Below are positions 3,597 through 62,597 of a stretch of DNA of 64,000 nucleotides, one piece after another. The translations under genes and the position numbers were made by a program. Under the pieces are notes generated by a model. That model was given only the letters and a program-made list of their open reading frames with translations, made no database searches and was not told the DNA's origin. The first letter of the stretch is position 1. Every line of letters begins with the position of its first letter. This DNA comes from a virus, in IMG/VR virus record IMGVR_UViG_3300036851_000411, positions 1 through 64,000 of that record. One strand, given 5' to 3'.

Positions 3597-4089
3597 CGGT
3601 GCCGTCGTTGGGGCGGCCGGCGCTTCCGAGATTCGGTTCTACCGCGCAAGCGACCAGCCGTACGGCGCGTTCTCGAATCTCTTGCGTTGCCAGATGGTGT
3701 TCGAGGACCGGGCGTTCCCGACCGCCGAACACGCTTACCAGTTCGGCAAGGCGGCGAAGCACAACGTTCGCGAGTGGCTCATGTCGGCGCCGTCGCCATC
3801 GCTCCTCGCGGTCACGGCGCACAACCTCCTGCCGTGGGACATCGTCCCCAACTGGACGCGCATCAAGGTCGACCGCATGCGCCGCGTGCTCCACGCGAAG
3901 TTCACTCAGCACGAGGATCTCCGCGCCCTGCTGATCGGCACCGGGAGCGCCCGCATCGTCGAGTGCGCCACGGTCAACAACGCCGTCAACCGGTTCTGGG
4001 GCGAGGTGAACGGGAAGGGCGAGAACACGCTCGGCGTACTCCTCATGGAGCTGCGGGCCGAGATGGCGACGGAGGCGACCAATGCCTAA
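3589..4089 (+). CDS. NADAR (YbiA-like) domain protein
   Basis: A 166-residue single-domain protein of the NADAR family. Visible marks are the FYRASDQPYGAFSN block near residue 16, FPTAEHAYQ near 46, and a C-terminal FWGEVNGKGENTLG block. Known NADAR proteins cleave N-glycosidic bonds of ADP-ribose derivatives; some remove ADP-ribose from DNA and act as antitoxins to DarT-type enzymes. A phage copy could reverse host ADP-ribosylation of phage DNA, or act on NAD pathway products; this is inference. Its start is in ATGCCTAACG, 8 nt inside the previous gene. Confidence 0.85.
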   Translation: MPNGAVVGAAGASEIRFYRASDQPYGAFSNLLRCQMVFEDRAFPTAEHAYQFGKAAKHNVREWLMSAPSPSLLAVTAHNLLPWDIVPNWTRIKVDRMRRVLHAKFTQHEDLRALLIGTGSARIVECATVNNAVNRFWGEVNGKGENTLGVLLMELRAEMATEATNA

Positions 4090-4726
4090 GCCGGCGCCTA
4101 ACGGCTTCTCGGTTTTGGCCGCGGATCCGCCGTGGTTCTACGCGCACTCGCGGTCCACCTCGCGCAAGATCGACACGCACTACCCGACAATGCGCACCGC
4201 GGACATCGCCGCGCTCGACGTGGCCGCGCTCTGCGATCCCGCCGGCGCCGTCTGCTACCTCTGGGTACCAGCACCCAAGCTGTTCGAAGGGATGCTGGTC
4301 CTCGCGGCGTGGGGCTTCGCGTACAAGACGCATCGCGTGTGGGACAAAATGCAGATCGGCATGGGCTACTGGACGCGTGGGAAGCATGAGGACCTGCTGA
4401 TCGGTACCACCGGGCGGAAGTCACCGCCCGCACCGGCCAACCGCCCGCCGTCTCTCCTGCACGAGGCGCGGTCCAAGGTCCACTCCCGGAAGCCGACGCT
4501 CGCACGCCAGCAGATCGAAGCGGCGCATCCACACGAAGAACGCCTCGAGCTGTTCGCGCGGGAGACGCACCCGGGGTGGACCGCGTGGGGACACGGCGTC
4601 GAGAGCGCCGTGTCCATCGGCACGCGTGCCCGCTCGACGATGCTCCCGCTCGTCAACCGCATCCAACACGACATCGCCCGGCAGCTGCTCGTGCCGATGG
4701 GCGAACCTATGGAGGGCGAGGAATAG
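4082..4726 (+). CDS. MT-A70 family DNA N6-adenine methyltransferase
   Basis: A 214-residue methyltransferase of the MT-A70 class. The catalytic DPPW is at residues 15-18, close to the N-terminus as usual, with a LWVPAPKL strand and an ERLELFARE block further on. It should transfer a methyl group from SAM to N6 of adenine. In phages such solitary enzymes usually protect DNA from host restriction; no restriction gene is adjacent. The start lies in ATGCCTAA, 8 nt inside the NADAR gene, so the two are probably translated together. Confidence 0.9.
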   Translation: MPKPAPNGFSVLAADPPWFYAHSRSTSRKIDTHYPTMRTADIAALDVAALCDPAGAVCYLWVPAPKLFEGMLVLAAWGFAYKTHRVWDKMQIGMGYWTRGKHEDLLIGTTGRKSPPAPANRPPSLLHEARSKVHSRKPTLARQQIEAAHPHEERLELFARETHPGWTAWGHGVESAVSIGTRARSTMLPLVNRIQHDIARQLLVPMGEPMEGEE

Positions 4727-5959: not shown

Positions 5960-6164
5960 GACTCTCCTCGCGCGCATCGTGGCTGACGCCGATCGCGCCC
6001 GAGGACCGAAGCAACATGTGTGCGTCGTCGTTGTGACCGAGGTGCCCGACGGGATGCAGCTCAACAGCGCGCACACGGTGGGATGGACGGGCGACACGTG
6101 GGCGATGATTCTCGCCCGCGCCGCGCACGGCGTGCCGGGACAGCGCGGGGGTGCCCGTGGCTGA
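5949..6164 (+). CDS. Small hypothetical protein
   Basis: A 71-residue unknown protein starting at GTG 5949, overlapping the previous gene by 11 nt. It has a strong beta strand (HVCVVVVTEV). The C-terminal Gly/Arg-rich tail overlaps the next gene. Confidence 0.55.
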   Translation: MDAETLLARIVADADRARGPKQHVCVVVVTEVPDGMQLNSAHTVGWTGDTWAMILARAAHGVPGQRGGARG

Positions 6165-7041
6165 GCACACCGGAATCGAATGGTGCGACAAGACGTTCAA
6201 CATCGCGTGGGGCTGCGAGAAGCACTCGCCGGGCTGCAAGAATTGCTACGCCGAGCGCGACTCGACGCGCTACGGACACAAGGTGTTCGGACCCGCGAAG
6301 ACGACCGAACGCCGGACCTTCGGCGATGGCCACTGGGCGGAGCCGCTCAAGTGGAACCGCGACGCGATGGTCACCGGCATCCGGTTGCGTGTGTTCTGCT
6401 CGAGCATGGCCGACTGGGCCGAAGATCACCCGACGATCGCGGCCCAGCTCCCGCGGATGTGGGCGCTTATCCGCGCAACGCCGTGGCTCGACTGGCTCCT
6501 GCTCACGAAGCGCATCGAGCGCGTGTCGCAGCTCCTGCCCGACGACTGGGGCGCGGGCTACGCCAACGTGTGGCTCGGAACGTCCGTCGAGAACCAACAC
6601 TACGCCGACAAGCGGATCCCGCACCTCATCGCCATCCCGGCGGCGATTCGGTTTCTGTCGTGCGAGCCGCTGCTCGGACCGGTCGATCTCAAGCCATGGC
6701 TCCGGAAGGTCCGCGAGGACCTACTGATGACAGACGGCCAGTACGATGAGGCGAAGCACGAGGCGAACAACGCCACGAAGATCTTCGCCCATCCGGATGC
6801 GTGGGCGATCCACTGGGTGATCGATGGCGGGGAGTCCGGCTTCACCGCGCGGCCGGCGGAACTCGACTGGTACCGCCAGCATCGCGACCAGTGCGACCAC
6901 TACGGCGTGCCGTATCTGCTCAAGCAGCTCGGCGGTCGTGGCGTGACGAAGGAACAGGTGCGCGGCGGGCCGTATGCGCTGCTCGACGGGAAGCTGCACC
7001 GCCAGTGGCCGAAGCCGCATCCGGAGGCGCTCCATGCCTAA
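6151..7041 (+). CDS. Phage Gp37/Gp68 family (three-Cys motif) protein
   Basis: A 296-residue protein matching the phage Gp37/Gp68 (DUF5131) family. Marks are the N-terminal GIEWCDKTFN block, a CX6CX2C cluster at about residues 22-32 (GC...GCKNCYAE), the SMADW, LLLTKR and GTSVEN blocks, FLSCEPLLGP, and IDGGESG. The cysteine arrangement recalls radical-SAM-like or metal-binding proteins, but the reaction is not known. GTG at 6151 or 6157 may be the start. It ends in an ATGCCTAA junction. Confidence 0.88.
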   Translation: MPVAEHTGIEWCDKTFNIAWGCEKHSPGCKNCYAERDSTRYGHKVFGPAKTTERRTFGDGHWAEPLKWNRDAMVTGIRLRVFCSSMADWAEDHPTIAAQLPRMWALIRATPWLDWLLLTKRIERVSQLLPDDWGAGYANVWLGTSVENQHYADKRIPHLIAIPAAIRFLSCEPLLGPVDLKPWLRKVREDLLMTDGQYDEAKHEANNATKIFAHPDAWAIHWVIDGGESGFTARPAELDWYRQHRDQCDHYGVPYLLKQLGGRGVTKEQVRGGPYALLDGKLHRQWPKPHPEALHA

Positions 7042-7624
7042 GAAAAAGCTGGAGGCTGTGGCCACCTCGCGCGGGCTTGAGCTGGTCGAGGCACTCCGTG
7101 CACTTCGGCGGGATGCGAAGTACCCGCCCGACGTTGAGTTCCACGGCAACTGGACTGCGTGGCGGAGCGGCGCTTCGTGTTTCCTCGGTGGTGTGTTCCT
7201 CACGAACATCTATCGCCGTCAGGATTGCGTCGACGGTTGGGATGCCGGGTTCGCGTGGGCCGAACGCGAGTGGGCGAAGCGCGTCGCGCCGATCTTGGCG
7301 GCGATCGAGCAGAACGAGCGGGCCATGGTGCCGGCAATGCCGACCGAGAAGGCGCTCGCGATCATGGCGCTCTACAGCGCCCACGTGCTCGCCAGTTTCA
7401 CCGGTGGTGATTCACCACCGGCCCTTGCCACGTATTCGCTTCGTGAGATCGTCGAGGCGAAAGCCATCGTCGAGGCGTTGAACGCTGAAGAGTCCAAGAA
7501 TGGTTATCGGACCATCTATGTCGTCCCCGACGATGAGATGATCGCGGTGTTGTACGTCGCATGCCGCATCGAGAATGGCGCCGCGCTGGTGGCGATCGAA
7601 ACGATGGCGGTAGCGCATGCCTAA
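7034..7624 (+). CDS. Hypothetical protein
   Basis: A 196-residue unknown protein starting in ATGCCTAA, 8 nt inside the previous gene, and ending in another such junction. The N-terminal half contains aromatic and Cys residues (FHGNWTAWRSGASCF); the C-terminal half is helical and acidic. No motif was recognised. Confidence 0.7.
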   Translation: MPKKKLEAVATSRGLELVEALRALRRDAKYPPDVEFHGNWTAWRSGASCFLGGVFLTNIYRRQDCVDGWDAGFAWAEREWAKRVAPILAAIEQNERAMVPAMPTEKALAIMALYSAHVLASFTGGDSPPALATYSLREIVEAKAIVEALNAEESKNGYRTIYVVPDDEMIAVLYVACRIENGAALVAIETMAVAHA

Positions 7625-9536
7625 CGTACCAGCTACCCGGGCGTGGCTCGACCCGGACGAGATCATCGTGGACAGCTTCGCCGGCGGCGGCGGCGCCTCG
7701 CAAGGGATCACCGAGGCGCTTGGCCGCGCGCCCGACATCGCCATCAACCACGACGCGGAAGCGATCGCGCTCCACAAGGCGAACCATCCGACGACGGAAC
7801 ACTTCCCCGAGAACGTCTGGAAAGTCGACCCGGTGACCGTCTGTCGCGGCCGACGCGTCGGGCTGATGTGGCTCTCGCCGGACTGCAAGCACTTCTCGAA
7901 AGCGAAGGGCGGCAAGCCGGTTGAGAAGAAAGTCCGCGGCCTCGCGTGGGTCGCGGTGCGATGGGCAAAGGCGGTGCGGCCGAGGGTGATCGTCCTCGAG
8001 AACGTCGAGGAATTCCAACACTGGGGCCCGCTCTTCCGGTCGGACCACCCGAACAGGAAGCTGCGCGACCGTCCAGACCCTGAGCGGAAGGCGCTCACGT
8101 TCCGCCGGTTCGTGGGCCGGCTGCGTGCGTTAGGCTACGTCGTCGAGTGGCGGGAGCTCCGTGCCTGCGACTACGGTGCGCCGACGACGCGCAAGCGCTT
8201 GTTCCTCGTCGCGCGCTGTGACGGCCAGCCGATCCACTGGCCCGAAGCGACGCACGGGAAGCACCGCCTACTGCCCTGGCGCACGGCGGCCGAGTGCATC
8301 GACTGGTCGATCCCGTGTCCGTCGATCTTCCTCACGCCCGTCGAGGCGAAGTCGTTGGGGGTCAGGCGTCCGCTCGCCGATGCGACGCTCCGTCGAATAG
8401 CCCGTGGCGTACAGCGCTATGTTATCGACGCGGCGGATCCGTTCATCGTCAGCTACTACGGTGCGAAGCGAGATGGTGACGACCGCACCGCGCCCCTCGA
8501 TGGGCCATTGCCGACGCAGACGACGGAGAACCGCTTCGCGGTGGTCGATCCGTTCATTGTGCCGGTGAGTCACAGCGGCGATGATCGCACGCACTCGGTC
8601 CACGATCCACTCCGCACCATCACCGGCGGGTCACGCGGGACGCACGCGATCGTCCAGCCGTTCATCGCTGGCGTTGGTGGAAGGATGGGGCAGTCCGCCG
8701 AGCGCGGCGTCGACCGTCCGTACCAGACGATCACCGCGAAGGCCGATGCCGCGTTGGTCGTCCCGACGCTCATTCAAACGAGCTACGGCGAAGACAAGAA
8801 GCGGAATGGCGGAATGGGACAGCCGCCTCGCGTGCTCGATCTTGGGGCACCGCTAGGTACGGTCGTCGCGGGCGGGATCAAGCATTCGCTCGTGTCGGCG
8901 TTCCTCGCCAAGCACTACGGCGGGCATGAGACGCCGGGGTCGTCGCTCGCGCAGCCGATCGACACGGTGACCGGCACCGATCATCACGCAGTCGTGAGCG
9001 CGCACATCGCGAAGCACTACGGCGGTCGCGTGGGATCGTCGATGGACGAGCCGCTGCACACGGTGACAGCCGACAGCGTGCATCACTCGGTCGTCGCGTC
9101 CTCGCTCGTGAAGCTCAAGGGCACGGCGAAGGACGGCCAACAGCTCTCGCTGCCGCTCCATACCGTGCAGGCGGGCGGGAACCACTACGGCGAGGTGCGG
9201 GCCTTCCTCATGAAGTATCACGCCACCGGCGGGCAGTGGAACGCGCTCAGCGCGCCGATGCCAACCGCCGTCGCGAAGGACAGCATCGCGCTCGTGACGG
9301 TGGCCGGCGCCCAGTACGTCATCGCTGACATCGGCATGCGGATGCTCGCGCCGCGGGAGCTCTACCACGCGCAGGGCTTCCCGTCGACCTATCGCATTGA
9401 CATCGAGTTCAACGGCAAGCCGCTGAGCAAGACGGCCCAGGTGAAGATGTGCGGCAATTCTGTCTGTCCTCCGCTCGCGGCGGCCATCGTCCGCGCGAAC
9501 TTCGCCACCACGGACCGGCAGGAGGTGGCAGCGTGA
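7617..9536 (+). CDS. DNA (cytosine-5) methyltransferase with repeated recognition region
   Basis: A 639-residue C5 methyltransferase. Motif I is DSFAGGGGASQG (about residues 19-30), motif IV is a variant SPDCKHFSKAK in place of the usual PCQ block, motif VI is VLENVEEF, and the C-terminal motifs are ELYHAQGFP and a GNSVCPP block. Between them, about residues 275-560 hold at least seven copies of a unit of about 35 residues with the pattern F-I/L-x-KHYGG, then DxPLxTVT, then HHAVV, which must form or extend the target recognition region. That is unusual for a C5 enzyme and may mean multi-site specificity. Likely role: protection from restriction. Confidence 0.92.
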   Translation: MPNVPATRAWLDPDEIIVDSFAGGGGASQGITEALGRAPDIAINHDAEAIALHKANHPTTEHFPENVWKVDPVTVCRGRRVGLMWLSPDCKHFSKAKGGKPVEKKVRGLAWVAVRWAKAVRPRVIVLENVEEFQHWGPLFRSDHPNRKLRDRPDPERKALTFRRFVGRLRALGYVVEWRELRACDYGAPTTRKRLFLVARCDGQPIHWPEATHGKHRLLPWRTAAECIDWSIPCPSIFLTPVEAKSLGVRRPLADATLRRIARGVQRYVIDAADPFIVSYYGAKRDGDDRTAPLDGPLPTQTTENRFAVVDPFIVPVSHSGDDRTHSVHDPLRTITGGSRGTHAIVQPFIAGVGGRMGQSAERGVDRPYQTITAKADAALVVPTLIQTSYGEDKKRNGGMGQPPRVLDLGAPLGTVVAGGIKHSLVSAFLAKHYGGHETPGSSLAQPIDTVTGTDHHAVVSAHIAKHYGGRVGSSMDEPLHTVTADSVHHSVVASSLVKLKGTAKDGQQLSLPLHTVQAGGNHYGEVRAFLMKYHATGGQWNALSAPMPTAVAKDSIALVTVAGAQYVIADIGMRMLAPRELYHAQGFPSTYRIDIEFNGKPLSKTAQVKMCGNSVCPPLAAAIVRANFATTDRQEVAA

Positions 9537-9790
9537 CGAGGCGGGTCGTGAGGTGGCACCAGCAGACGACGGCGAGCTATGGCGACGCCGAGACCTGGTA
9601 CGCCCGCTACCGTGGCTGGACGCTGTACGCGCATCGCATGAAGAAGCGCCGGGTCTGGTACCCGAGCGTGCATCGCTTCACGGGCGGCGGGGCCGACGAC
9701 GCGCGCAGCGTGGCGATCTATGGCTCGCCCGAAGGCGCGCAGAATGCCGCCGAGTTCTACGCCGAGCACGGACGGTGGCCGCATGCCTAA
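9533..9790 (+). CDS. Small hypothetical protein
   Basis: An 85-residue basic, aromatic-rich protein. GTG at 9533 overlaps the methyltransferase stop as GTGA. It ends in an ATGCCTAA junction. The many Trp, Tyr and Arg residues suggest a nucleic-acid-binding role, without a known family. Confidence 0.62.
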   Translation: MTRRVVRWHQQTTASYGDAETWYARYRGWTLYAHRMKKRRVWYPSVHRFTGGGADDARSVAIYGSPEGAQNAAEFYAEHGRWPHA

Positions 9791-10499
9791 CGCAACGGTC
9801 GCCGTTCGCGAGCGCGGGATCATCATGCAAGCCGAGAGCGTGCTGGCCACGCTCGACGGTCGGAAGACCCAGACGCGACGCATCGTGAAGCTCAAGCCTT
9901 GGATGGCACGTGACGCGATGACGCGCGACGCGGCGTGGGCCGACCCCGGCATCGGTGCCGGTGGCTACCTCAAGGTCCCCCGCGGCCAGGACAACACCGC
10001 ACATCGACTGTATTGCCCGTACGGCGCGGTCGGTGATCGGCTGTGGGTGCGGGAGACGGCGTGGTTCGACCGAGAAATGATGCCGTTGCTCGGGTATCTC
10101 CGATGCTTCTTCGAAGGCGGTGATGTCCGGCATGAAGGGGACCCGACGACGGCGAAAGCGCCAGGCCTGCCGGGGTCGCACGTCGCCAGCGTGTTCAATC
10201 TCAACACGGCGCTCGTTCGGCGTTCGTCGATATTCATGCCGCGCTGGGCCTCCCGCCTCACCCTCCAGATCACTGGCCTACGCGTCGAGCGGCTGCAGGC
10301 GATCAGCGATGCCGACACACTCGCCGAAGGCGTCCGGTCGCACACCACGAGCGACGACACCGCAACGGGGGCAGCGTCTCGGCGGCAGGTCTACCGCAAT
10401 CTCTGGGACTCGCTGAATGCGAAGCGCGGCTACGGATGGGATGCGAACCCGTGGGTCTGGGTCATCGGGTATCGACGCCTAACGGGCGAGGTGGCCTGA
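9783..10499 (+). CDS. Phage ASCH-type protein
   Basis: A 238-residue protein of the long phage ASCH type: MQAESVLATLDGRKTQTRR near the N-terminus, YGAVGDRLWVRET in the middle, then a MPRWASRLTLQIT block, RVERLQAISDADTLAEGV, and a closing WDANPWVWVIGYRR. These proteins are frequent in phages; binding of RNA or modified bases is assumed from the PUA-like fold. The start is in ATGCCTAACG. Its presence beside several DNA modification genes may be meaningful, but there is no direct evidence. Confidence 0.85.
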   Translation: MPNATVAVRERGIIMQAESVLATLDGRKTQTRRIVKLKPWMARDAMTRDAAWADPGIGAGGYLKVPRGQDNTAHRLYCPYGAVGDRLWVRETAWFDREMMPLLGYLRCFFEGGDVRHEGDPTTAKAPGLPGSHVASVFNLNTALVRRSSIFMPRWASRLTLQITGLRVERLQAISDADTLAEGVRSHTTSDDTATGAASRRQVYRNLWDSLNAKRGYGWDANPWVWVIGYRRLTGEVA

Positions 10500-23821: not shown

Positions 23822-24018
23822 AGCCATCCATCGGCACCGCGGGGGATCACCCGCCCGGCTCACACGCGGCGAAGCGGCAGGGATGCACGTGCCCGATGCC
23901 GGAGAACCAATACGGGCACGGGACGCGGCCGACGTACCTGTCACGGCCAGAGCAGGCGGTGTTCGTCGTCGCGCCCGACTGCCCGATCACCGCGCATCAG
24001 GAACTGGCGACCCGATGA
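23818..24018 (+). CDS. Small hypothetical protein
   Basis: A 66-residue protein, GTG-coupled on both sides. It has a GDHPPGSHAAKRQGCTCP segment typical of short Cys-containing phage proteins of unknown role. Confidence 0.6.
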   Translation: MKPSIGTAGDHPPGSHAAKRQGCTCPMPENQYGHGTRPTYLSRPEQAVFVVAPDCPITAHQELATR

Positions 24019-24575
24019 GCGTCGATCCCAACGACCACATGGGCCTCCTCTACTGGGAAGCGGCGCAGATGGCGCGCACCTACGGGCGGCCAGTGTCGGA
24101 GCTCGTGGGCTCGGGCTATCTCGGCCTCGCGCGCGCGGCGCGGCGGTTCGATCCGTCGTTAGGCCTCGCGTTCGCGACGTTCGCCGTCCCGCACATCCGC
24201 GGCGCGATCCTCGACGGGCTTCGTGCTGAGCAGCCGAGAGGGAAGCGCTACGGCCGTCGTGCGCACATCTCCCTCGAGTCGCTCCTGACGTTGCCGCCGG
24301 CCGCGATGCCTCCGCGCCTCGCCGACGCACTGACGACGAACCCCGACTATGGGGCAGCGGTGGACCGTGAGCGGCGCGCCTCACGCGTGCGCCGCGCCGT
24401 CGACGCGCTCAAGCCCCGACCACGCGCAGCGATCCATGCGCATTTCTGGGGCGATGGGCCGTCGGCGCTCGCGGCGCGCTGGGGATGCACGATCGCCAAC
24501 ATCTCACACATGAAGCGCCGGGCGCTTGCGCGCCTCGCCCGCATGCTGGCGCCGCTCGCGCCGGAGGGTGCCTAA
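24015..24575 (+). CDS. Phage sigma-70 family sigma factor
   Basis: A 186-residue sigma factor. Region 2 (SELVGSGYLGLARAARRFD, then FATFAVPHIRGAILDGLR) lies at about residues 25-75, and region 4 (a helix-turn-helix with ALAARWGCTIANISHMKRRAL) at about 140-175. It is closest in layout to FliA/WhiG-type sigma factors. It is placed just before the late genes, so it may direct RNA polymerase to the class I boxes, whose TTG-to-CATAAG spacing (14-15 bp) is too short for ordinary sigma70. That link is inferred. Confidence 0.85.
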   Translation: MSVDPNDHMGLLYWEAAQMARTYGRPVSELVGSGYLGLARAARRFDPSLGLAFATFAVPHIRGAILDGLRAEQPRGKRYGRRAHISLESLLTLPPAAMPPRLADALTTNPDYGAAVDRERRASRVRRAVDALKPRPRAAIHAHFWGDGPSALAARWGCTIANISHMKRRALARLARMLAPLAPEGA

Positions 24576-29867: not shown

Positions 29868-30058
29868 GCGACGCCGCCGTGCGCTGCCACTACGTGTGGG
29901 TGATGGCCACCACAGTCCGCGTGCAGACCGTGTGTGAGGACGACTCGTTCACGTTCGGCGTAGTCCACCCGGGTCAGGCCTTCCATGGCGTGCCGTACGA
30001 GGCGCTGCAGGCCGGGAAGTATGACGCGGCGATGCAGTTCGTCCCGTTCGGCACCTAA
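29864..30058 (+). CDS. Small hypothetical head-region protein
   Basis: A 64-residue protein with GTGA-coupled start. Its stop TAA lies in CCTAACG, with the next GTG 4 bases later. Confidence 0.58.
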   Translation: MSDAAVRCHYVWVMATTVRVQTVCEDDSFTFGVVHPGQAFHGVPYEALQAGKYDAAMQFVPFGT

Positions 30059-36753: not shown

Positions 36754-37152
36754 ATGAATTCCGCCGAGATGCGCGAGATGGCGCAGACGAACCTCCGCGA
36801 GGCGCTCGAGCTCACGAGCCCGAACCTCACGCTTACGAAGCGTGCGACGGGCATACTCGCTCCCATCACGGACACGACGACGCCGTCGACGCGCACGCCG
36901 ACGAGCTACGCGGCGTACGGGGTCGTGTTGCCGAAGAAGCCACGTCGGTTCGAGCCGGGGAGCACGGCGACTGGCATGGCCGAGCAGGTTCTTATCGCCG
37001 CGGCGGAGCTGCCGGACGGGATCGCGCCCGAGCCGAACGACCTCGTCACGATGAGTGGCGGTCGCCAGATCGTCATCGGCCCAGTCGACACGCTTCGGCC
37101 GGACGGCGTCACGCCGGTGCTGTACACCTGCGACGCGACAGGAGGGCGTTAG
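36754..37152 (+). CDS. Probable head-tail stopper/connector protein
   Basis: A 132-residue protein with a strand-rich C-terminus (LVTMSGGRQIVIGPVDTLRP) like phage stopper proteins. The order (adaptor, this gene, gp10-like, terminator) supports the call. Confidence 0.62.
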   Translation: MNSAEMREMAQTNLREALELTSPNLTLTKRATGILAPITDTTTPSTRTPTSYAAYGVVLPKKPRRFEPGSTATGMAEQVLIAAAELPDGIAPEPNDLVTMSGGRQIVIGPVDTLRPDGVTPVLYTCDATGGR

Positions 37153-37155
37153 GCG

Positions 37156-38122: not shown

Positions 38123-39592
38123 ATGGCACAAGCCACCACCGATCGCGTCCGACTCGCCTACGTCCCCGAGGTGACGTTCAAGACGACGCCCGCGAGCCCG
38201 CTCTTCCGGCTCTGGCGCAACAAGTCGCAGGGACTGGGTGGGACGCCCAAGTCCGTCGTCTCCGAGGAGATCATCTCCTCGCGCGAGATCGCCGATTTCA
38301 TCCTCGTCGGCAAGGATGTCGCGGGCGATGTCGGCGGCGAGCTGATTCACGATGCGTACGAAGAGCAGATGGCCGGCGCGTACGCCAACGCGTGGGTCGG
38401 CGGGCCGCGTCGGTGGAATGCCTTCGCCGGGCAGATCACCGCGGTGTCGAGCTCCCAGTACACGGTCCTCGCGGTCACCGGCGAGGCGTTCGCCGAGGGC
38501 ATGCTCGTCCGAGCGACCGGATTCACCAACGCCGGCAACAACCGAATCTTCCGCGCGGCGGCCACGTCGAGTGGCACGGCGGTCGTCGTCTCCGGCGGAA
38601 CCACCGAAGCCTCACCGCCTGTGACGGCGCGGCTCCAGGTGATCGGCTTCGCGGGCGCATCGGGCGATGTCACCGCCACGACCACGGGCCTCGCCTCGAC
38701 GGTGCTGGACCTAACGACGCTCGGACTCACCGTGGGCCAGTGGTTGTACGCGCCGGGCACCGCCGACGCGTTCGGCACCGCGGCGGGCAACAAGTTCGCG
38801 GGGATTCCCGGCGGGTTCCTCCGGATCAGTGCCATCGCCGCCGCGGCGATCACGTGTGACATCCGACCGGCGGGGTGGACGACCGACGCCGGTGCGTCGA
38901 AGACGATCCACGTCTACGGCGGGAAGTTCCTCAAGAATGGAACGACACGCACGTCGTTCACGATCGAGCGCGCGTTCCTCGATACCGACGCGGTCACGTA
39001 TGAGTACTTCACCGGGTCGATCATGGACAAGATGTCCGTGAGCGCCAAGCCGCAGGCGATCATGGAGATCGGCTTCTCGGTGCTGTCGGCGGTGCACACG
39101 CTGACGGAGACGGAAGCCTCGGGCGCCACCCGCACGACGATCTCGAGCGACGACGTGATGAACACGTCGAGCAACGTCGTGGAGCTCATGGAGGGCGGCT
39201 CGTCGATTCTGGCCGGGCCGAACTTCGTGCTCGGGATGGATTTCCAGATCAACAACAACGTCCGTCAGGGCCCGGGCATCGGCACGCTCAACTACGTCGT
39301 CGTGAACCTCGGCACGTTCGAGGTCTCAGGGAAGGTCGAGACCTACTTCGCGAGCAAGGCGTTGCTCGACAAACTGCTCTCGCAGTCGGAGACGCAGCTC
39401 ATGCAAGCGGTGATCGACGGCGATCACCATGGCCTGCTGTTCGACTTCCCGAACGTGAAATACGGGTCGGGCTCGCCGGCTGTCCCGGGGCGCAACGAAG
39501 ACGTGAAGGTCACGCTCGACTTTCGTGCCAAGCGCGACCCGACGCTGCTCTACACGGCGAGCGTCACCCAGTTCGAATCGATCGGCAGCTAA
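38123..39592 (+). CDS. Major tail tube protein
   Basis: A 489-residue tube protein. The N-terminus RVRLAYVPEVTFKTTPASP and GDVGGELIHDAYEEQM match siphophage tube proteins; the long middle (about 110-260) with several Ig-like strands (SGTAVVVSGGTTEASPPV) is probably an added surface domain. It polymerises along the tape measure. Confidence 0.85.
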   Translation: MAQATTDRVRLAYVPEVTFKTTPASPLFRLWRNKSQGLGGTPKSVVSEEIISSREIADFILVGKDVAGDVGGELIHDAYEEQMAGAYANAWVGGPRRWNAFAGQITAVSSSQYTVLAVTGEAFAEGMLVRATGFTNAGNNRIFRAAATSSGTAVVVSGGTTEASPPVTARLQVIGFAGASGDVTATTTGLASTVLDLTTLGLTVGQWLYAPGTADAFGTAAGNKFAGIPGGFLRISAIAAAAITCDIRPAGWTTDAGASKTIHVYGGKFLKNGTTRTSFTIERAFLDTDAVTYEYFTGSIMDKMSVSAKPQAIMEIGFSVLSAVHTLTETEASGATRTTISSDDVMNTSSNVVELMEGGSSILAGPNFVLGMDFQINNNVRQGPGIGTLNYVVVNLGTFEVSGKVETYFASKALLDKLLSQSETQLMQAVIDGDHHGLLFDFPNVKYGSGSPAVPGRNEDVKVTLDFRAKRDPTLLYTASVTQFESIGS

Positions 39593-39608
39593 TCGGCAGC
39601 TCACAGGA

Positions 39609-39706
39609 GGGTAACCGGAAACTCCATCACCTGCGCTGCACCAGCACACTCTCATAGATACTGAGCCTGGCGCGGTGGCGTGGGTGCTCTGCAAGACCGG
39701 TTACCC
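39609..39706. other. Inverted repeat, possible structured RNA
   Basis: GGGTAACCGG (39609-39618) is perfectly repeated in reverse at 39697-39706 (CCGGTTACCC), enclosing 78 bases with further short complements. It lies after the tube gene and may be a terminator or a structured control element before the tail chaperones. Confidence 0.45.
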
Positions 39707-39716
39707 GATCCATGCA

Positions 39717-39753
39717 CGTTAGGGCACGTTAGGGCACGTTAGGAGTCGTTAGG
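39717..39753 (+). repeat. Four CGTTAGG words at exact 10-bp spacing
   Basis: CGTTAGG starts at 39717, 39727, 39737 and 39747; the first two units share GGCAC spacers and the last is preceded by AGT. The spacing equals about one DNA turn, so the words lie on one face of the helix, which suggests cooperative protein binding. Confidence 0.9.
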
Positions 39754-39888
39754 CATGGCCTCGGCGGCGTTCATGCCGTCGTCGGGGAGCGGAGCGGAGG
39801 GGGACTCACAGCCCCAAACCGGGCGCGGCTCGCGAGAGCCGGCATGACGCCCGGGGAGGGGCATCCGCGTTTACCGGAGAGACTCGTT

Positions 39889-40392
39889 ATGGAAGGCGAC
39901 ACATCGAACACCACCGTGAACCCGCTCGCCCGTCAGGAGATCGCGACCACGCAGCCCGACAACCCGCGCCCAGTGCCGGCGCTCTGGGACCGCTACGCGC
40001 AATCGGAAGAGGCGATCGAATCAGGCGCGTGGGTGGATCTCGGCGACGGCATCCGCGTCAAGGTCCGGTCGGTCCACTCGACGCGCGTGCGGAAGAAGAA
40101 CGCCGAGACGCTGCGGAAGGACCGGGCGAAGTATGCCGCGCGCGGGTTCGTCCTCGATCCGGCCGAGCAGGATGCAAAGGAGATCGCCGACGCCGTCGAG
40201 GTGTTGGTCGACTGGGAGGGCGTGACCGATGCGTTTGGCGAGGTCCTCGTCCCATCGCGCGAGAACAAGGAGGAGATTTTCAAGGCGCTCCCGCCGTTCC
40301 GTCGCGATGTGCTTGCGGCGGCGGGGATGGACGAGACGTACCGGGCCACCGCGCTCGCCGGTATCGCGGGAAACTCACGGCGACCCGCTTAG
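39889..40392 (+). CDS. Tail assembly chaperone, short form (G-like)
   Basis: A 167-residue protein. ATG 39889 is preferred to 39844 because a GGAGAG site precedes it. It has VKVRSVHSTRVRKKNAETLRK and a helical end, and lies between tube and tape measure genes as tail chaperones do. Its last codons contain the slip site GGGAAAC. Confidence 0.82.
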   Translation: MEGDTSNTTVNPLARQEIATTQPDNPRPVPALWDRYAQSEEAIESGAWVDLGDGIRVKVRSVHSTRVRKKNAETLRKDRAKYAARGFVLDPAEQDAKEIADAVEVLVDWEGVTDAFGEVLVPSRENKEEIFKALPPFRRDVLAAAGMDETYRATALAGIAGNSRRPA

Positions 40393-45500: not shown

Positions 45501-46979
45501 CTCCGCAACGCCGCCGCGGCGGGCTCCGACGCTGCCAGGGTGACGGAACTCTACAACCTCAAGCTCAAGGCCCTCAACGACGAGGTGGCGCGCGCCGCGG
45601 CCAGCATCGGGGCCAACGTTGGCGCACGCGAAGCGTTGTTAGGCGGGCGGGGCGACGAGGCGCAGGGGATCGCTGCCAGGGAGACGGCCGCCGCCGCGCT
45701 GTTCGAAGCGCAAAAGCTCTATCAGGCCGGCACCATCAGCGAGGAGCTGTTCAAGCGACTCGCCGCCGTCATCGAGGGCGAGCTCAATCGCTCGCTCGAT
45801 CAGATCGCGCAGGAGGCGAAGCAGCGCGCTGGCGATCTCGAGGCGCGTCGGCTCACGGCGGCTGGCCAGACGCAGGAAGCCGACGCGCTCCGGTTCAAGC
45901 TCGCACAGGAGAAGGAACTCAACGACGCCGTCGCAGCCGGCACCTCGGCGGCGGAGATCGCCACGCTCCGATACGTGCAGGCGCTGGAGGCCGAGGCGTT
46001 CGCCAAGGCGCAGGCGCAGCAGAAAGCTGACGCCGCGGGCGAGTTCCAGGTGCGCGCACTGCTCGCGCAGGGCCGCACGCAGGAGGCCGACGCCATGCGG
46101 ATCCAGCTCGCCAACGAGAAGGAGCTGCGCGACGCGCGCGAGCTCGGCATCGAGTCGCTGGTGAAGGAGACGCAGGCGCTGGAAGCCGCCACGCGCGCTC
46201 GCGAGGCTGCTGCTGCCGCCGCCAACGCGCTGGCCGATCTCGAGATACGGAAGCTCCAGGCGGAGGGCCGAACCGCCGACGCCGATGCGCGACGGCTCGA
46301 TCTGCAGCAGGCGCAGGAGCGCGAGCAGTTCGCGAAACAGTTCGGCGAAGACTCGCCGGTCTTCAAGCAGCTGCTGGAAGTGCAGCGGTTGGAGAAGGAG
46401 CGAAAGACCGCCGAAGCCGCCAGCGCCCTTGCGGGGAGCACCAGCGCCGCTCCAGGCCCGAGTAATGGTGCCGTGGTGTCGAGTGGGTTCCAGGCGATCT
46501 CGCGCGAGGCGGGCGATCGGTTGGCCGACTACGGGCGGACCGCGCTCATCGTGTTCCGCGAAATCCGGCAGGATACGGCGACGCTCCCGAAACTGCTGGA
46601 CGCGTTCCGCGCCGGCCAGTTCCCGTTAGGGGGAGCGTTAGGCGGTCCGACGGCGGCACCCGCGGCGATCGCGCCGTCACCAGCTGCCAGTGCGTTCGCC
46701 CAGACTGCCACGACCGCCAGCCCGGGTTTTGTGTCCGCGTTCGGCGCGGGATCGACCGGAAGCACCGCTCCGCCGAGCACCGGCACGCACGGCCCGCTCA
46801 TCGGGCAGATCACATTCGACGTGGTGGTCGCCGCCGATGTGCCCGACGCGAAGGCGAAAGGGCAGGAGATCGCGGACGCCGCGCTGGAGCGCTTCATGGA
46901 GCGCATCGACGAAGGGCTCTTCGACCGTCTCGCTCGCCAGGACGCGGCGCGCGGTAGCACCACGCTGAGCATCCAATGA
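42594..46979 (+). CDS. Tape measure protein
   Basis: A long tail length ruler, 1461 residues if it starts at CTG 42594; the first ATG is at 42753, but the 53 codons before it (STYTLNIAINAGPAQAGGQL) look like a true tape measure N-terminus. Residues about 90-260 hold a tape-measure domain (VEGRIKLTTKSTDELRAVE, ATLQLGQAFSSARLSGDELR). Hydrophobic spans follow (about 305-385), then coiled coils. Near 1075-1270 a unit of about 70 residues (QTQEADALRFKLA type) occurs three times. Confidence 0.93.
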   Translation: MSTYTLNIAINAGPAQAGGQLVVRTLEEIKAAAQQTVAAVSQSNQLLGQILGAVQTGAQQGANGVKQLSAQVSALQRTMQSAWAVAKQWLAFAGIGLGVKQLIDYADGYRLVEGRIKLTTKSTDELRAVEAKLFEVANATRTSYAATADLYSKVARSSGELGISQRQVVTLTQAVGQALQISGASTGEATAATLQLGQAFSSARLSGDELRSVLENAPRLAKAVADGMGVTVGQLRTLGSQGKLTGEAVAKAILSQADALNREFKSVPLTIGQSFTVLGNYIQRYVGWSDRATGASALLARTIILLAHNVDLLANFAIYAGVVFLLYRNLTLLTAGMAIARVAVLALAAGNWAGVASTLGLTAAVNGLKAAIASTGIGLLLIAIGAIAVALYTWYQRTKQQKEALRELSDEIKKQKQASDSARASVLNEAAADQIRQQQQLEALRRSGPKALERVQNVQSDENAALEEGKRLYGEYVKKSEEAAQARGKAITVERDFTKALAGGNKEAQAFLLIAAETALRKRAVTTETELVTKAIEIQNDRLEKEADAWATVGQAVRQAQRDGAGLKTLTTAYQNAETRARAAAGASGGYALALGNELRAIENYVKEAERATEIGEAINGLSFDAAAIVTKEMNARYKLADALDEQTRKTKDLARLQAEAQNRQLKATLPSTPPKSAFAQANDAEEGDIAARIQARAQEMKLIVENVFRGMQESAAQFFLNVFTQGIRSFRDLFNSIRLLFLQMLAQLAAAKLVTKLRDTIRAQVGGVSEDGLTKIAPTSPGYGTAASKLGAAGQVAGAVGFVASIITGFGNTLAKSRDQAKYGGAALGFAAFGPVGALAGAALSLAGFDKKAKAAAKAMAEAQKEFARNLDSFVATAFGTGSGLADALRANQQARDELRKEANVALSGKKNEKVRNQQLEEIDTATKANAARLAKEFTDGIEAQINALTGKSDLNARAALEKEYAENLRNAAAAGSDAARVTELYNLKLKALNDEVARAAASIGANVGAREALLGGRGDEAQGIAARETAAAALFEAQKLYQAGTISEELFKRLAAVIEGELNRSLDQIAQEAKQRAGDLEARRLTAAGQTQEADALRFKLAQEKELNDAVAAGTSAAEIATLRYVQALEAEAFAKAQAQQKADAAGEFQVRALLAQGRTQEADAMRIQLANEKELRDARELGIESLVKETQALEAATRAREAAAAAANALADLEIRKLQAEGRTADADARRLDLQQAQEREQFAKQFGEDSPVFKQLLEVQRLEKERKTAEAASALAGSTSAAPGPSNGAVVSSGFQAISREAGDRLADYGRTALIVFREIRQDTATLPKLLDAFRAGQFPLGGALGGPTAAPAAIAPSPAASAFAQTATTASPGFVSAFGAGSTGSTAPPSTGTHGPLIGQITFDVVVAADVPDAKAKGQEIADAALERFMERIDEGLFDRLARQDAARGSTTLSIQ

Positions 46980-60999: not shown

Positions 61000-61650
61000 A
61001 TGGAACACCCCGAGACAGTTTCACCGCCGGTGATGCTGTACGCCGGCTCCGACGGAGCGCCGGGCGACAGTGCGAACAAGGGCACATCACCGACGCCCAA
61101 TCTTGTATTCCCAACCAAACCCGAACGGCCAGCGCCGGGCACGGTCTTGCCGTGCGAGAGCTGCAACGGCGGCACGTGGCGCGACCCGTTAGGCGCTGAC
61201 GACGCCCTCTGCGCGCGATGCCAGGGCTCCGGCAGTGTCACCGTTCGGAGCCAGGCGGACCTGACCGCGCTGATGCACGCGTGGGAGGCCGAGGGCGCTG
61301 TGTGGGCGCTCCAGGAGGTCGAGGGCTTCGGTTACCACTACGACGAGCTCAAGGCATACGCCGTGGCTCGCGGGCGGACACTAGCGAAGGCGGCCGAGAG
61401 TCGCGCACGCCAGAAAAAACAGCAGGAACATCAGCGCCTCCAGCAGCTTGCCGAGTCGCTCGATCTCATTCCCGATTCGGAGGCTGACCACGAAGAGCGC
61501 ATGCGCGTGCGCACGGTGTTTCGGGCGCTGGTGATCGACCGGTTCGACCGATTGATCGGTGCCATCGATCGACTCGGCTCGACCATCGCGCACACGAGTG
61601 CCGAGCAGATCGACCAGATGGTGCACGAGAGCCGGAGGAGCGAGCGATGA
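61000..61650 (+). CDS. Hypothetical protein with DnaJ-like zinc pair
   Basis: A 216-residue protein. LPCESCNGG and ALCARCQGSG (about residues 50-78) form a DnaJ-type zinc ribbon; the rest is a long helix with a coiled coil near 135-155. It is ATGA-coupled to the Rad52-like gene, so it may assist recombination or replication. Confidence 0.68.
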   Translation: MEHPETVSPPVMLYAGSDGAPGDSANKGTSPTPNLVFPTKPERPAPGTVLPCESCNGGTWRDPLGADDALCARCQGSGSVTVRSQADLTALMHAWEAEGAVWALQEVEGFGYHYDELKAYAVARGRTLAKAAESRARQKKQQEHQRLQQLAESLDLIPDSEADHEERMRVRTVFRALVIDRFDRLIGAIDRLGSTIAHTSAEQIDQMVHESRRSER

Positions 61651-62597
61651 CCGCCGCCGCGCTCGTCCGCCCCTCTCCGCGCAACGTGGCCGCCATCCTC
61701 GATGCACTCGCCGCGCCGTTCGCGGCCGAGCATGTCGGATGGATGCTGCGCGATGGGAAGCTCGACAACAACGTGCCGAAATCGGTGGCGGTGCCGTTCA
61801 TCGACATCTGCGCCGTGATGGACCGGCTCGACCAGGTGCTCGGACCGGAGAACTGGAAGGACGACTACCGTCCGGTGCCGAATTCCACGACGGGCTTGCT
61901 CTGCGAGCTCTCGATCCGGATCTGGCGTGAGGACGAGGGCTACACGTGGCTCACGAAGGTCGATGGTGCCGACCCGACGGCGATCGAGCGCACGAAAGGG
62001 GGGATTTCGAGCGCGATGAAGCGCGCCGCGGTGCGGTTCGGCATCGGTCGCTATCTGCACCGGCTGCCCAAGATGTACGCGTCGTTCGTGCTCGACCGGA
62101 GGCGACAGGGCCCGGGGAGGTACTTCGGCTATGTCAAGGCGTCGAAGGACGACAAGCGCGGTGTTGGCTTTGCGTGGAACCCGCCGACGTTGCCGTCGTG
62201 GGCACTGCCTAACGGCAGCGGATGGCCGGGGCCGACGCGCACGAGCGAAGGAGACAAAAAGGGAGACACAAAGACTGACCGGACCCGAGGCGGCCAGAGC
62301 AACGCTGCCGCCGCCTCACATACCGCTGGGGCGGCAGGAGTCCCTGCCGGCGGGGTGTCTGAGTCAGGGTCGTCGTCCGAAGGCGCCCCCATCGACCCAT
62401 GCCGCATCGAGCTTCCAAAGCTGATCGGCTTCACCGACCTGCGCGGCGTGCCGTTAGGCAAGATCCCGGTCGCCGATCTCCGACGTATCCACCGGCACGT
62501 CGAGAAGCGGAAGCCGCACTTGGCGGAGAAGGTTGCGCACGTGATCGCTGCGTGCGAACAGGCCCCCGGAGGGCGCATCGATGACCTGCCGTTCTGA
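61647..62597 (+). CDS. Rad52-family single-strand annealing protein
   Basis: A 316-residue protein. The first 150 residues (VPFIDICAVMDRLDQVLGPENW, ELSIRIW, TKGGISSAMKRAAVRFGIGRYLH) are typical of phage Rad52/22 annealing proteins. A Ser/Gly/Pro linker (about 200-250) and a short C-terminal domain (GKIPVADLRRIHRHVEKR) follow, the latter perhaps for contact with a single-strand binding protein. It pairs homologous strands in phage recombination. Confidence 0.9.
   Translation: MTAAALVRPSPRNVAAILDALAAPFAAEHVGWMLRDGKLDNNVPKSVAVPFIDICAVMDRLDQVLGPENWKDDYRPVPNSTTGLLCELSIRIWREDEGYTWLTKVDGADPTAIERTKGGISSAMKRAAVRFGIGRYLHRLPKMYASFVLDRRRQGPGRYFGYVKASKDDKRGVGFAWNPPTLPSWALPNGSGWPGPTRTSEGDKKGDTKTDRTRGGQSNAAAASHTAGAAGVPAGGVSESGSSSEGAPIDPCRIELPKLIGFTDLRGVPLGKIPVADLRRIHRHVEKRKPHLAEKVAHVIAACEQAPGGRIDDLPF

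Follow-up and report, generated by a model that had tools for sequence, protein, structure and literature searches.

The stretch of DNA analysed here (the window) covers the first 64,000 bases of a virus record that is 82,133 bp long. On its plus strand, a tail tube gene (38123-39592), whose product matches an annotated major tail tube protein, is followed by a tail assembly chaperone gene (39889-40392; phrog_313), and the gap between the two (39593-39888) holds four plus-strand copies of the word CGTTAGG at 39717-39753. Their starts, at 39717, 39727, 39737 and 39747, lie at exact 10-bp steps, so that both the spacing and the gene context described in the first-pass annotation were confirmed. 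The 10-mer GCACGTTAGG makes up units one to three, and unit four, AGTCGTTAGG, has a different spacer (AGT). A simple consensus scan of the gap returned no promoter-like or terminator-like site. A putative open reading frame of 30 amino acids (MASAAFMPSSGSGAEGDSQPQTGRGSREPA; 39755-39847, plus strand) begins one base past the last word, and the AGGAG ahead of it (39741-39745) is partly built by the third word. With the 87 words of the whole record placed at random, runs of four spaced by exactly 10 bp would number about 1e-8; the identity of three of the units makes tandem duplication the simplest source of the array, which, judged by its letters, looks more like a short tandem repeat than like four independent sites.

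The same word is scattered throughout the virus record. The window contains 69 copies of CGTTAGG, where dinucleotide-preserving shuffles lead one to expect 3.28 (largest shuffled count, 10), and the whole record contains 87, with 47 copies forward and 40 reverse. Its one-mismatch neighbours mostly number 0-9, the exceptions being CGTTCGG (37), CGTGAGG (29) and CGTCAGG (25), and the longer form CGTTAGGC is present 63 times in the 82 kb. Within phage genes, as called by a home-made caller, 26 of 28 coding-strand copies are read as NCG-TTA-GGN, copies on the opposite strand often supply NCC-TAA-CG stops, and 26 of the record's 35 TTA codons lie inside the word; the TAG within CGTTAGG ends two genes. 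Three plus-strand gene overlaps consist of ATGCCTAACG, which joins the start of one gene to the stop of the previous one (2878-2887, where the TAA stop lies within the reversed word; 7617-7626; 9783-9792). At 37147-37153 (plus strand), a copy provides the TAG stop of one gene, follows GGAGGG and precedes the ATG of the gene after it, and two copies 12 bp apart in the tape measure gene (46624-46642, plus strand) are both in-frame NCG-TTA-GGN. The word is a DNA-level signal: both strands carry it, it uses every frame in which it makes no stop, and it also serves as a stop codon, as would be seen for a DNA word retained wherever the protein allows. That the array and the scattered word belong together is supported.

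Several other genes of the window may be recorded here. An MT-A70 methyltransferase gene (4082-4726), a gene for a DUF5131 protein (6151-7041) and a DNA methyltransferase gene (7617-9536) belong to a run whose members are joined by 8-bp ATGCCTAA overlaps. A gene with a sigma-70 region 2 domain, possibly for an ECF-type sigma factor, lies at 24015-24575, and its product is 52% identical over 46 amino acids to a stretch of plasmid 1 of Gemmatirosa kalamazoonensis; an Erf/Rad52-like single-strand annealing protein is encoded at 61647-62597.

G. kalamazoonensis, a soil bacterium of the Gemmatimonadota, which provided the host data in the form of one strain with two megaplasmids, proved to be rich in the same word. 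Plasmid 1 (1.106 Mb) contains 778 copies of CGTTAGGC (404 forward, 374 reverse) against 20 of the word written backwards, and plasmid 2 contains 701 against 19. Ranked by the ratio to one-mismatch neighbours, CGTTAGGC is the top 8-mer in both replicons (778 versus 42 in plasmid 1; 537 versus 31 in the 800 kb of plasmid 2 that were analysed in detail). Its density is about 0.7 per kb over both strands, and that in the virus record is near the host value of 0.70 per kb. The extended word is YGTTAGGCR, with CGTTAGGC as its core and flanks that contribute mainly the Y before and the R after. In eight counted genomes of other groups, CGTTAGGC was not enriched, being scarcer than or about equal to the backwards control.

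On plasmid 1, 335 of 367 TTA codons fall within GTTAGG(C), TTA accounts for 24% of leucines in the context [SPTA]LG versus 0.3% elsewhere, 59% of usable Pro-Asn slots contain the word, and its use is independent of reading frame. The word is about 1.5 times denser between genes. Its spacing is more even than random, with 171 gaps of 500 bp or less between words on plasmid 1 versus 230 expected, and with coefficients of variation of 0.85 versus 0.98 on plasmid 1 and 0.90 versus 0.98 on plasmid 2. Plasmid 1 also carries hairpin-like elements in which GGACTGAAG units at 11-bp steps are followed by the same units inverted (for example, at 183401-183490, 231506-231600 and 1092878-1092970), as well as 120 copies of GGACTGAA/TTCAGTCC.

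The first 106 kb of plasmid 1 is a tandem pair of a siphophage prophage that encodes remote homologues of the window's tail genes. The two 53-kb copies (1-106120) include homologues of the tail tube, chaperone and DUF5131 proteins of the window's phage; the genome paper reported a 53-kb tandem repeat there and did not call it a prophage (PMC3974934). CGTTAGG occurs at 0.62 per kb in the prophage versus 0.69 per kb in the remaining plasmid, and the prophage was not selected by the word. Taken together, we are highly confident that the word clustered locally in tandem in the array is one that is highly iterated in the host lineage. Likewise, the window's phage very probably has a host among the Gemmatimonadota, an assignment based on the word, the GC content and distant protein matches, of which the protein matches alone are not specific: the window's tail tube is 33% identical to that of the Gemmatirosa prophage, which is no better than its identity to the tail tubes of Vibrio phages. 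Between positions 30000 and 48000 of the window, no DNA-level match was found among 50,697 phage records.

The word was also met in four further viral records of high GC content, which came from a scan of viral contigs for repeated words followed by whole-record counts: G004 (25 copies in 30 kb), G014 (37 in 46 kb), G017 (43 in 41 kb) and L006, also listed as G001 (9 in 11 kb). Since G001, G004, G014 and G017 were picked by means of the word, they are not an unbiased sample, and we make no claim on all phages of Gemmatimonadota. The word-bearing records are mutually remote and have few proteins in common, whether among themselves or with the window's phage, and protein-based scans of viral contigs retrieved only remote or known relatives. 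In the tail genes that are homologous between the window's phage and G004, word positions are not shared, but this comparison carries little weight, as most of these words lie in poorly aligned parts. A Big_2-type repeat protein occurs in G017 and G014, which presumably points to Gemmatimonadota; in G017 (73% GC), where our home-made gene calls are unreliable, a polarity of the word that at first seemed two-sided was not significant. A dense group of CGTTAGGC and GTTTAGGCGAAACGTTAGGC repeats at about 12.1-12.3 kb of IMGVR_UViG_3300045136_000261 lies in a contig of 54% GC that is probably unrelated.

The one-turn spacing had been taken as a sign of cooperative binding in the gap, and the comparison with the same gap in a relative bears directly on this idea. 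The matching gap of the related prophage on plasmid 1 has zero copies of CGTTAGG. Arrays occur in other gaps instead: L006 has five copies at 9-10-bp steps between two of its genes, and G004 has two copies a short way upstream of its major-head-protein homologue. The position of the array is therefore not conserved, and what proved common to the host lineage is the word itself. An operator dedicated to the tail tube-chaperone gap would account for exact 10-bp steps that put all copies on one face of the helix, and short words that recur at phage gene junctions are familiar from the stoperators and start-associated repeats of mycobacteriophages. Unlike these, CGTTAGGC also occurs in host replicons, in both orientations and with many in-frame copies inside genes; the array is missing from the prophage gap, and L006 and G004 have theirs elsewhere. 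We thus rejected a phage-specific operator and regard it as extremely unlikely.

The arrays of the window's phage and L006 have variable spacers but nine intact words, as expected if the words are under selection. The 10-bp array probably arose by tandem amplification, with the words preserved and the spacers drifted. A scan for three copies in 84,980 bacterial and archaeal genomes returned 13 loci, mostly simple 10-bp tandem repeats; the eight genomes of other groups in which CGTTAGGC was counted came from this set.

A broader tendency towards helical spacing may nevertheless be real, and to this extent the original idea may stand, without a dedicated cooperative site in the gap. Of the 20 close same-strand pairs on the Gemmatirosa replicons, 8 are 10-12 bp apart, versus 14% for 400 control words (binomial P 0.004); a fraction as high as that of the word was reached by 4.3% of the control words. 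We regard the preference as a hint of helical phasing. It would suit a host protein that acts on all cellular DNA, in nucleoid organization, segregation or self-marking, and whose cooperativity is aided by such phasing, as would the occurrence of the word in host and phage, in both orientations and with even spacing. Against this, the close pairs are few and could stem from short tandem duplication, and no candidate protein was found; we consider such a protein an unlikely explanation.

A non-palindromic 8-mer that is strongly over-represented at similar densities in host replicons and phages brings Chi to mind. In a Chi-like role, a helicase-nuclease of the AddAB/RecBCD type in the host would switch from degradation to recombination at CGTTAGGC, and phages would carry the word to survive the nuclease. 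The word occupies 24-59% of synonymous slots, which seems high for Chi. It has no replication polarity on the megaplasmids (across the GC-skew arms of plasmid 1, 248/250 and 156/124), and neighbouring words are on the same strand in 55-56% of cases versus 50%, a slight local strand run. Chi of E. coli (GCTGGTGG), which shares with CGTTAGGC the nature of an over-represented non-palindromic 8-mer, differs in lying almost only on the leading strand (PMC8022716). In view of the absent polarity, Chi was rejected, and a Chi-like function appears doubtful to us.

Another genome-wide, lineage-specific iterated octamer is HIP1 of cyanobacteria (GCGATCGC), and a methylation-linked word of this kind might be considered, as the phage encodes methyltransferases and iterated words in cyanobacteria track methyltransferases (PMC4390886). 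HIP1 is palindromic and linked to methyltransferases (PMC4390886), whereas CGTTAGGC is not palindromic and is absent from the published SMRT methylome of the strain, which lists only RGATCY, ATGCAC and CCAGN7TCA and in which 5-methylcytosine is not reported (PMC3974934). With published motifs that differ from the word, we rejected HIP-type or m6A methylation, whose chances we hold to be very slim. The nick motifs of phage tf and phiKMV were likewise rejected: the phiKMV consensus, printed as CGACxxxxxCCTA/CTCCGG (PMC3517423), has CCTA in common with the word's reverse complement, but nick sites are confined to one strand, and the word lies on both strands of the phage record.

A different connection is offered by an integron on plasmid 1 (about 807-850 kb), an array of small cassette genes whose attC sites measure about 97 bp (GCCTAACG...TGCAACGATTCGTTAGGC). 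The attC sites of this cassette array start with GCCTAACG and end with CGTTAGGC, so that the two make up the outer core of these Gemmatirosa sites and the word coincides with their R box (GTTRRRY). Scattered copies could accordingly be targets of recombination or be left over from cassette traffic. Only in the cassette array, however, were R''/R' boxes found as pairs on either side of a hairpin; the scattered words stand singly, at even distances and where synonymous codon choice puts them, without a paired attC partner, and outside the array there are only nine chance-like pairs 40-130 bp apart. Secondary integron sites were thus rejected, and an integron-linked origin of the scattered copies is, in our estimate, very unlikely. 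The iterated word may match the integron core by coincidence, given how loose the consensus of the attC box is; alternatively, the match may reflect a link between cassette capture and DNA import. An integrative element of commensal Neisseria is reported to be seemingly adapted to uptake words as integration sites (PMC7371117).

Among known systems, DNA uptake sequences provide the best fit, because the word is non-palindromic, lies on both strands, reaches about 700 copies per Mb and is present in temperate phages. By analogy, we suggest that the word may act like a DNA uptake signal, a reading to which we give slightly less than even chances. Like the USS of Pasteurellaceae (AAGTGCGGT) and the DUS of Neisseriaceae, CGTTAGGC is short, non-palindromic and sharply defined, at a density that in those systems is about 0.5-0.8 per kb on both strands, and is shared by host and temperate phages. 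The huge over-representation was found in both host megaplasmids, both orientations are used without replication polarity, and the word has accumulated in the Gemmatirosa prophage at its 0.62 per kb. Temperate phages of Pasteurellaceae accumulate the uptake sequence of their host, saturating near 750 per Mb, whereas large, likely lytic ones are without it (PMC6776037); our direct count in phage HP1 (32 kb) gave 17 copies of AAGTGCGGT and 0-2 of its neighbours. The window's record encodes a protein with a phage integrase domain, just over the Pfam cut-off, which is consistent with a temperate phage.

If the word serves in uptake, a receptor of the host would prefer DNA that bears it, and word-bearing fragments would be taken up and recombined more often. 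Copies would then build up where the protein sequence permits, namely, in TTA leucines of xLG, in Pro-Asn, in stop codons and in gaps, and this accumulation would extend to temperate phages that have long been resident in the gene pool. To give the 10-bp array, a 10-mer in a non-coding gap would have been duplicated in tandem or multiplied by slippage, and selection would hold the words intact while the spacers change. A search of the two megaplasmids and the phage did not find ComEC. Differences from USS and DUS are the other sequence and the other phylum, together with the putative nature of an uptake role for CGTTAGGC; in addition, CGTTAGGC often supplies stop codons and ATGCCTAACG overlaps, and its letters are those of the R box in a resident integron array, a coincidence that speaks against the uptake reading and is left unexplained by it.

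To our knowledge, no uptake word has been described for the phylum Gemmatimonadota, and we found no report of CGTTAGG/GTTAGGC for phages or Gemmatimonadota in the literature, including that on uptake sequences, iterated words and methylomes. It is possible, and we put it forward only tentatively, that Gemmatimonadota have a lineage-wide word for DNA self-recognition, CGTTAGGC, which is read by a host machine such as an uptake receptor or a recombination nuclease and is adopted by phages, and that its coincidence with the integron core could allow DNA import and cassette capture to share a signal. Few highly iterated words have a known role (Chi and DUS/USS), and HIP1 is unexplained. A sharp new word in an abundant, hardly cultivated soil phylum would provide a handle on natural transformation or recombination there, and CGTTAGGC lends itself to a direct uptake or nuclease assay. 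Furthermore, word frequency may serve as a simple test for assigning soil viruses to Gemmatimonadota hosts, in the manner of USS profiling for the phages of Pasteurellaceae.
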